A stretch of 64,000 nucleotides of DNA from Gammaproteobacteria bacterium. GTDB lineage: Bacteria > Pseudomonadota > Gammaproteobacteria > Eutrophobiales > Eutrophobiaceae. Each line of letters starts with the position of its first letter. Positions within the stretch are counted from its first letter, which is position 1. The DNA is taken from NCBI GenBank assembly GCA_016193395.1, contig JACPSH010000014.1:62001-126000 (forward strand), given 5' to 3'. Position numbers and translations under genes: made by a program. Below the pieces are notes generated by a model that saw nothing but the letters and a program-made list of their open reading frames with translations, searched no databases and was not told where the DNA came from. This document shows positions 8,934 to 35,107 of the stretch, one piece after another.

Positions 8934-8970
8934 GGAACCATGGTGCCCGTTCCGCCGGGCGTAGAATATT

Positions 8971-9129
8971 TAGGGAACCTCTGAACAAGTTCAGAGGTTC
9001 CTGCCGCACAAGGAGGGGCGGCCATTTTCCGATCGCGTAAGCGATTGGAAAATGAAGGAAAGCGAAAATCACACTTTTCGCTTTCCGTGCTCTGACAAGT
9101 CCCGGACGGACTTGTTCAGAGCTTCCTTA
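8971..9129. repeat. four-hairpin MITE-like element, copy B
   Basis: A 159-bp element bounded by 20-bp terminal inverted repeats (8971-8990 TAGGGAACCTCTGAACAAGT and 9110-9129, two mismatches). Four consecutive palindromes fill it: 8974-9001 (13-bp stem, 2-nt loop), 9023-9054 (14 bp with one G-T pair), 9057-9086 (12 bp, loop TCACAC) and 9090-9121 (13 bp with one bulge). The order, the loop TCACAC and the CGGAC-GGACTT segment are shared with the element at 34871, but the stem sequences differ. It occupies the divergent gap between htpG and the TPR lipoprotein gene. No transposase is encoded. Confidence 0.85.
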
Positions 9130-9248
9130 GCTTCGGACGCGCCGGATTTCAAGGCCAGTCCCGGCCCTGACCCGCCCGTGGAAGACCGCGATTCGGGCGC
9201 CACGCGGTCAATGCGGACGCCGCCGTATGGCGATCGTCCTGCGCATTT

Positions 9249-34387: not shown

Positions 34388-34870
34388 ATGTCGGAAAAAC
34401 GCGTCATCAAGAAGTATCCGAACCGCCGACTCTATGATACGGAGATCAGCCGGTATATCACGCTCGATGACGTAAGGGCCCTGGTACTTCAGGGAGTCGA
34501 CTTCAGTGTCAAGGACGTCAAGACGGACGAGGATCTGACGCGCTCGATCCTGCTGCAGATCATCTCCGAACAGGAGCACGACGGCGACCCGCTGTTCTCG
34601 ACCAAGACGCTCACCCAGCTCATCCGCTTCTACGGCAATGCCTACCAGACGGCCTTCTCGGATTACCTGCAGAATAGCCTGGAATTGCTCGGCACGCAGC
34701 AGCAGGAATTCCAGGAGAACCTCCAGAAAACCATGAGTTCCACTCCGCTCGCCGCGATGAATGAAATGACCCAGCGCAACCTCGAGATGTGGAAGCAGGT
34801 GCAGGACAGTTTCTTCAGGGCGACCGGCTTGTCCCCGGCGAAGCCGGACACCGACAGAAAGAAGGATTAG
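34388..34870 (+). CDS. phaR: polyhydroxyalkanoate synthesis repressor PhaR
   Basis: A 160-aa DNA- and PHA-granule-binding regulator. The N-terminal domain starts KRVIKKYPNRRLYDTEIS, the family hallmark, and continues YITLDDVRALVLQG. A PHB-accumulation domain (about 65-105; DPLFSTKTLTQLIRFYG) and an amphipathic helix (about 110-145) follow. PhaR represses phasin and its own gene until polymer is present. The stop abuts a four-hairpin repeat. Confidence 0.95.
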   Translation: MSEKRVIKKYPNRRLYDTEISRYITLDDVRALVLQGVDFSVKDVKTDEDLTRSILLQIISEQEHDGDPLFSTKTLTQLIRFYGNAYQTAFSDYLQNSLELLGTQQQEFQENLQKTMSSTPLAAMNEMTQRNLEMWKQVQDSFFRATGLSPAKPDTDRKKD

Positions 34871-35021
34871 CAGGCTGTTGAAAAAAGCCTTTTCAACAGC
34901 CTGATAAAGCGGTGCAGGATGCGCCGCCATTTTTCAAGCCATTGAAAAATGGAGAAAAGCAGATCACACTTTTTGCTTTTCGAGTTGAAAAAGTCCATGG
35001 ACGGACTTTTTCAACAACCTG
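34871..35021. repeat. four-hairpin MITE-like element, copy A
   Basis: A 151-bp element with 15-bp terminal inverted repeats (34871-34885 CAGGCTGTTGAAAAA and 35007-35021, one mismatch). It contains four palindromes: 34871-34903 (14-bp stem), 34927-34952 (11 bp), 34954-34981 (8 bp, loop with GATCACAC) and 34984-35015 (13 bp, loop ATGGAC). The order and loop cores match copy B at 8971, with different stem sequences. It starts immediately after the phaR stop, in the convergent gap before purF. A sequence like the left end of copy B (TAGGGAAACTCTGAAGAAC) follows at 35023. Confidence 0.87.
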
Positions 35022-35107
35022 TTAGGGAAACTCTGAAGAACCGTCATGAGCATGCCCCGCCGCGTTTCCCTGGCGCCGGGTCCATGCTTCCCGGTCCGCT
35101 GGTTCCC

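Follow-up and report, generated by a model that had tools for sequence, protein, structure and literature searches.

A five-hairpin, IS5-type miniature element beside phaR, with GGA loops that may resemble CsrA/RsmA sites by function as well as by sequence

We read the element that directly follows phaR (copy A) as a non-autonomous IS5-type miniature transposon carrying a folded interior RNA with CsrA/RsmA sites. The probability of this reading is put at approximately 0.5, and there are no CsrA binding or transcription data behind it. Copy A lies in the window (the whole 64,000-nucleotide stretch of DNA analysed here) together with a second element, copy B.

Copy A and copy B in the window

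The element proper of copy A, as read in the sequence, spans 34871-35021 and has TTAG on either side; the TAG of the left TTAG (34867-34870) is the phaR stop codon. Five hairpins in a row (HP1 to HP5) were predicted with both DNA and RNA parameters (fold z -9.2 and -9.5 respectively), and none of 200 shuffles was equally stable. The parts are listed below with the basis of each in brackets.

34867-34870, + strand: left target-site duplication TTAG (sequence; duplication statistics over 65 copies)
34871-34903, + strand: HP1, left terminal inverted repeat CAGGCTGTTGAAAA folded onto its own inner copy (fold prediction; covariation)
34909-34927, + strand: HP2, GCGGTGCAGGATGCGCCGC, loop CAGGATG, a CsrA-like GGA loop (fold prediction; loop counts)
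34928-34951, + strand: HP3, CATTTTTCAA-GCCA-TTGAAAAATG (fold prediction; covariation)
34954-34981, + strand: HP4, A-rich/T-rich stem, loop TCACAC, family consensus about YCRCRY (fold prediction; loop comparison)
34984-35015, + strand: HP5, GTTGAAAAAGTCC-ATGGAC-GGACTTTTTCAAC, hexaloop ATGGAC, CsrA-like ANGGAN (fold prediction; loop counts)
35010-35021, + strand: right terminal inverted repeat ...TTCAACAACCTG, the HP5 outer arm plus tail (sequence)
35022-35025, + strand: right target-site duplication TTAG (sequence; duplication statistics)
35026-35041, + strand: B-type end remnant GGAAACTCTGAAGAAC, directly abutting the right TTAG (window pattern search; analogous side-by-side copies)
8970-9130, + strand: copy B, element 8974-9126 with TTAG duplications at 8970-8973 and 9127-9130 and the same five hairpins

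Copy B has the identical hairpin order with other stems; its HP4 loop is TCACAC and its HP5 loop is CGGAC. In the window no Rfam family scored up to its cut-off (TD-2 came closest as a weak match, 25.1 of 48.7 bits) and, with no model at cut-off, an Rfam-family identity for copy A, including a CsrB/RsmZ family RNA, was rejected.

A first-pass annotation, made from the sequence alone, had claimed that the two copies share the hairpin order, the TCACAC loop and an ATGGAC/CGGAC loop pair, and that their stem arms differ yet still pair. All of this held: the order and the TCACAC loop in fold predictions, ATGGAC and CGGAC as the HP5 loops of copies A and B respectively, and the stem differences as real ones with covariation support. 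It had placed the element at 34871-35042, which is corrected here to true ends at 34871 and 35021, with TTAG outside. A B-type left-end remnant that it saw at 35023 held in part, being the right TTAG plus GGAAACTCTGAAGAAC (35026-35041). GGAAACTCTGAAGAAC resembles a B-type end, a pattern with just two matches in the window at 3 mismatches or fewer (0.00 expected), but no complete B partner lies 3' of it. The claim that the two subtypes stand side by side also held, and similar neighbours with a common YTAR are found at other loci (L094, L168 and L180).

A conserved fold with covarying stems

The five-hairpin fold is conserved. The main covariation set consisted of 23 full CAGG-ended copies aligned with MAFFT, for which RNAalifold itself proposed the hairpins, with two-sided changes in 27 of 48 pairs. 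Paired cells amounted to 96.2%, whereas shuffles gave 83.9% and slid controls 39-50%; double-change cells numbered 121 vs. 31 in shuffles (matched by 0 of 500). RNAalifold found two-sided changes in 16 of 40 pairs of the GGAA-ended set, where HP3 was left out because of alignment gaps. The covariation picture was unchanged in a mixed seed, though HP5 was imperfectly aligned there. All five hairpins contribute to the covariation, and compensatory changes are abundant among the host copies as well as among those of the class and beyond it.

When the host genome (2.7 Mb, 60 contigs) was searched at the DNA level, at least four stem subtypes were found, A1, A2, A3 and B, with six nearly complete A copies (94-97% or better), A2 copies at 74-75%, A3 copies at 87-91% and B copies at 82-96%. 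Intermediates were found in other genera. The elements of the family are about 150-165 bp long, and in all subtypes HP1 and HP5 each pair a terminal repeat with an inner copy of it. The first-pass annotation had allowed that the two regions might align only by chance, or that copies genome-wide might show no compensatory changes. Neither is the case, given the A, A2, A3 and B copies, the intermediates in other genera and the abundant compensatory changes. Its inference that paired changes imply selection on structure is supported, with caution, as template-switch repair can alter both arms too.

Such repair of imperfect palindromes, by changing both arms at once, could mimic part of the covariation. 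A rival explanation goes further and takes the elements as neutral palindromes, their symmetry being kept by template-switch repair without any selection on structure. Long inverted repeats are prone to template-switch correction, which speaks for this explanation, as do the HP1 arms, nearly perfect in many copies. However, it accounts neither for constant loops between fast-changing stems, in and outside the class, nor for the fixed hairpin order or the G.T/A.C asymmetry described below, and we consider it highly improbable.

Spread across genomes was assessed with a covariance model for HP2-HP5, for which 16 diverse copies were used. The host harbours 63 non-overlapping core copies at E 1e-3 or better. 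Within the class, the fold was detected in 73 of the 369 genomes (1e-5). At the level of the phylum it was detected in 44 of 399 genomes (1e-6), of which 41 are not members of the class and belong mostly to one family. Named carriers include Sedimenticola, Chromatiales, Lysobacterales, Methylococcaceae and an Olavius symbiont. Plasmid and phage collections gave no match to the one copy used as query, and no description of the element by sequence or topic was found in the open-access literature searched. The superfamily is large, widespread in proteobacteria and, as far as the open literature searched shows, undescribed.

Several unusual arrangements were also observed. Host loci L019, L026 and L030 have solo HP5 hairpins (~50 bp, flanks YTAR-like) that appear to be minimal derivatives. 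A two-hairpin module (TGACCGCCANGGATGGCGG-NANTGCAGA..GCAGGAG..TCTGC) is inserted within many host hairpin elements (L003, L013, L037, L074, L130 and others), inside the HP2 loop (CAGG^GATG) in A2/A3 copies and near HP3, HP4 or in HP5 in other copies; the module itself has the loops ANGGAT and GCAGGAG. At about 1390-1755 of L163 (G055), the HP2-HP5 unit forms a head-to-tail tandem array. Pattern matches also occurred in records titled Klebsiella pneumoniae MAG or Spirochaetes MAG (L192, L232, L242 (CAMAVY01) and L218 (JAFGJX01)), which points to doubtful titles or bins, or to transfer; L218 was confirmed by the covariance model.

Mobility and IS5-family partners

The element is mobile and has an IS5-type target site. 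Flanking 4-mers were identical in 50 of the 65 copies with recognisable ends (14 expected), and nearly all of them are TTAG, TTAA, CTAG or CTAA, that is YTAR, the IS5 target motif (PMC10359306). The phaR-purF interval of the relatives G003 and G019 is without the element, and in genome G160 nine almost identical hairpin copies lie at sites unrelated to one another, most of them flanked by duplications; both observations support recent mobility.

G160 also encodes five IS5-type transposase genes of equal score (IS5 family confirmed, NF033581, E 1e-105). The ends of these insertion sequences, GGATGCTCTGAACAAG/GGAACTTCTGCAAAAG with CTAA duplications, are similar to B-type hairpin-element ends (GGATGCTCTGAACAAG matches the hairpin-element end GGAAGCTCTGAATAAG at 14 of 16 positions), and the CTAA of two IS copies is common to the adjoining hairpin element. 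Because of these similar ends and this common CTAA, trans-mobilisation by IS5 is the natural reading for the GGAA-ended copies. A comparable IS is present in G127 (L170), and the IS5 elements of both genomes are without the five-hairpin interior. No PF01609 or IS5-type transposase was found in the host genome, and a host-encoded transposase was rejected as the mover for that reason. No autonomous partner with the A-type CAGG ends of copy A was present among the fetched loci; the only candidate, L262, was rejected, as it consists of two separate hairpin elements. Two of the checks proposed in the first-pass annotation were answered here: target-site duplications are present and of IS5 type, and full-length transposons with similar ends exist for the B type (IS5 family), with none bearing CAGG ends in the fetched loci. 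Cross-mobilisation by an IS5-family transposase remains inferred, the likeness of ends being shown for B-type/GGAA ends and no partner having been found for CAGG ends.

Near-identical multicopy elements lacking the HP1 5' arm were observed in G127 and G248 (L324, L325, L327 and L329-L334). Each starts at the HP1 loop, the left flanks being unrelated, and the right end always joins YTAR. This structure is at odds with standard two-ended transposition; all are draft assemblies.

The features common to this element and to IS5-family insertion sequences (NF033581 group) and MITEs are the 4-bp YTAR duplication and the absence of coding capacity, to which the IS5 elements of G160 and G127 add ends like those of the B type. 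Unlike IS5 MITEs, the interior is a conserved five-hairpin chain and not a deleted IS5, and this chain is common to elements with unrelated ends (CAGG and GGAA types). Coxiella QMITE1/QMITE2 (PMC5896051) are also MITEs of gammaproteobacteria whose interiors fold strongly and are in part transcribed, but their direct repeats are of 2-4 bp (WW, SS or GAAG) and 7-9 bp, and the five-hairpin order is not described in the relevant sections of that paper. REP/BIME sequences with RAYT transposases are likewise short extragenic palindromes in many copies, but differ from the hairpin element, which has YTAR duplications and paired terminal repeats. A RAYT/REP origin was rejected, as the fetched Y1 transposase genes are not flanked by hairpin elements. 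The host has one Y1 (IS200/IS605-like) transposase gene (L313, C22, about 236 aa), with no hairpin element beside it.

One-strand GGA loops and their possible role

The GGA loops lie on one strand. They, and their likeness to CsrA sites, go beyond what the first-pass annotation had claimed. Apical loops were counted only in copies not picked by a GGA-containing pattern; pattern-fetched copies were excluded from the HP2 count because the DNA pattern contains GGA. The HP2 loop had GGA in 71 of 77 copies (the majority of copies in 36 of 36 genomes) and the HP5 loop in 76 of 77 (35 of 36 genomes). GGA was present in 0 of 77 HP3 and HP4 loops and is not shown by the loops of the opposite strand. 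The pattern-fetched set provides an independent value for HP5 (48 of 52). As the copies are related, these counts do not represent independent events. In genomes outside the class the stems differ again; HP2 loops are mostly CCATGGATGG and HP5 loops mostly ACATGGACGT, CCATGGACGG or GCAGGATGC in nearly all genomes examined, and the HP4 loop of about YCRCRY is kept there too.

The consensus is ACANGGATGT for HP2 and CCANGGAYGG for HP5. HP2 reads G-Y-A-C-A-N-G-G-A-T-G-T (the table includes pattern-fetched copies; the per-genome list without them agrees). The HP2 consensus agrees with RUACARGGAUGU, the SELEX consensus for CsrA, as well as with the ANGGAN hexaloop of RsmE targets (PMC7652899). However, SELEX sites mostly have four or fewer contiguous pairs (PMC7652899), unlike the HP2 stem with its seven or eight, which counts against the CsrA reading. 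The csrA gene is encoded in 35 of 35 genomes tested, carriers and non-carriers, and its presence is uninformative as a test because every tested genome has it. CsrA/RsmA as the partner of the GGA loops is an inference without binding data, and the balance tilts slightly against it.

Mismatches were counted on the GGA strand in stems otherwise Watson-Crick, using three window settings. G.T exceeded A.C in each (33:8, 86:28 and 55:28; p 1e-4, 5e-8 and 0.004 respectively). The direction was the same in each hairpin (clear in HP3 and HP4, near 0.05 in HP1 and HP5, too few in HP2), and HP1 shows the excess though it is outside the covariance model. Since selection on double-stranded DNA would give equal G.T and A.C, the excess favours RNA of the GGA strand; the counts are not phylogenetically independent. 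The choice between DNA and RNA, left open by the first-pass annotation, is moved by the strand-specific loops and the G.T excess towards RNA (or one single strand), with transposition via the ends. That RNA is the selected molecule is inferred, with no transcription data, and we favour it by a modest margin.

Gene contexts were derived from a crude ORF rule. There was no sense-orientation bias in tandem gene contexts (26 sense vs. 38 antisense, p 0.17), and sense bias was rejected as support for an mRNA role. Without it, many copies would not be read on the GGA strand from host promoters. In tandem contexts of the host, 3 copies are sense and 14 antisense to both neighbours, as if GGA-strand mRNA insertions were disfavoured.

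An ordinary IS5-type MITE is a possible alternative. Its hairpins would matter only as DNA, the folded strand being recognised or protected in transposition, and the GGA loops would be ssDNA protein contacts. The YTAR duplications and IS5-like ends, the folding of terminal repeats on inner copies in HP1 and HP5 of all subtypes and the lack of sense-orientation bias speak for it, and the conserved HP4 loop YCRCRY is not known to have an RNA partner. However, IS5-type DDE transposition acts on double-stranded ends, from which one-strand loop conservation is not predicted; moreover, the G.T excess is strand-specific and no five-hairpin interior is present in the IS5 elements of G160 and G127.

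Another alternative is a mobile terminator or 3'-end stabiliser, the hairpins ending or protecting transcripts of the neighbouring gene. Convergent contexts are the commonest (40 of 128), the A-tract/T-tract stem of HP5 resembles a bidirectional terminator, solo HP5 hairpins persist (L019, L030), and effects of MITE insertions on transcript stability have been reviewed (PMC10969869). Against this, neither the GGA loops nor the HP4 loop would be required and most of the fold would be superfluous, making this explanation unlikely.

The element resembles CsrB/RsmX/Y/Z in having several hairpins with (A)NGGA loops on one strand, with CAGGATG as in the CsrB repeats. It differs from them in being mobile and multicopy, with only two GGA loops per copy, no identified promoter of its own and no Rfam match at cut-off.

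Under the miniature-transposon reading that we prefer, the body of the element would consist entirely of a single conserved five-hairpin chain. A DDE transposase of the IS5 family, provided in trans, would act on the terminal inverted repeats, and insertion at YTAR would duplicate 4 bp. Selection would preserve the fold and the loops of the interior on one strand. The GGA-strand transcript would be a structured RNA, and its HP2 and HP5 are each inferred to offer a CA(N)GGANG loop to CsrA/RsmA, and the copies would act as dispersed CsrA-binding sites, titrating CsrA or marking the transcripts containing them.

A bolder reading, for which binding data are lacking and which we judge less likely than not, is a transposon superfamily in and outside this class of Pseudomonadota whose sole conserved cargo is a folded RNA with two CsrA/RsmA sites. 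If true, CsrA sponges or CsrA-responsive tags would be carried through host genomes by selfish elements, as many as dozens in one genome. Should the loops bind CsrA, transposition would disperse the sites of a global regulator in many proteobacteria, giving mobile DNA a direct route to rewire or titrate post-transcriptional control. Even without CsrA, the element is abundant and structured, no Rfam model covers it, and its fold is constant across many genera with stems almost entirely changed: a case where structural selection on a MITE is measurable.
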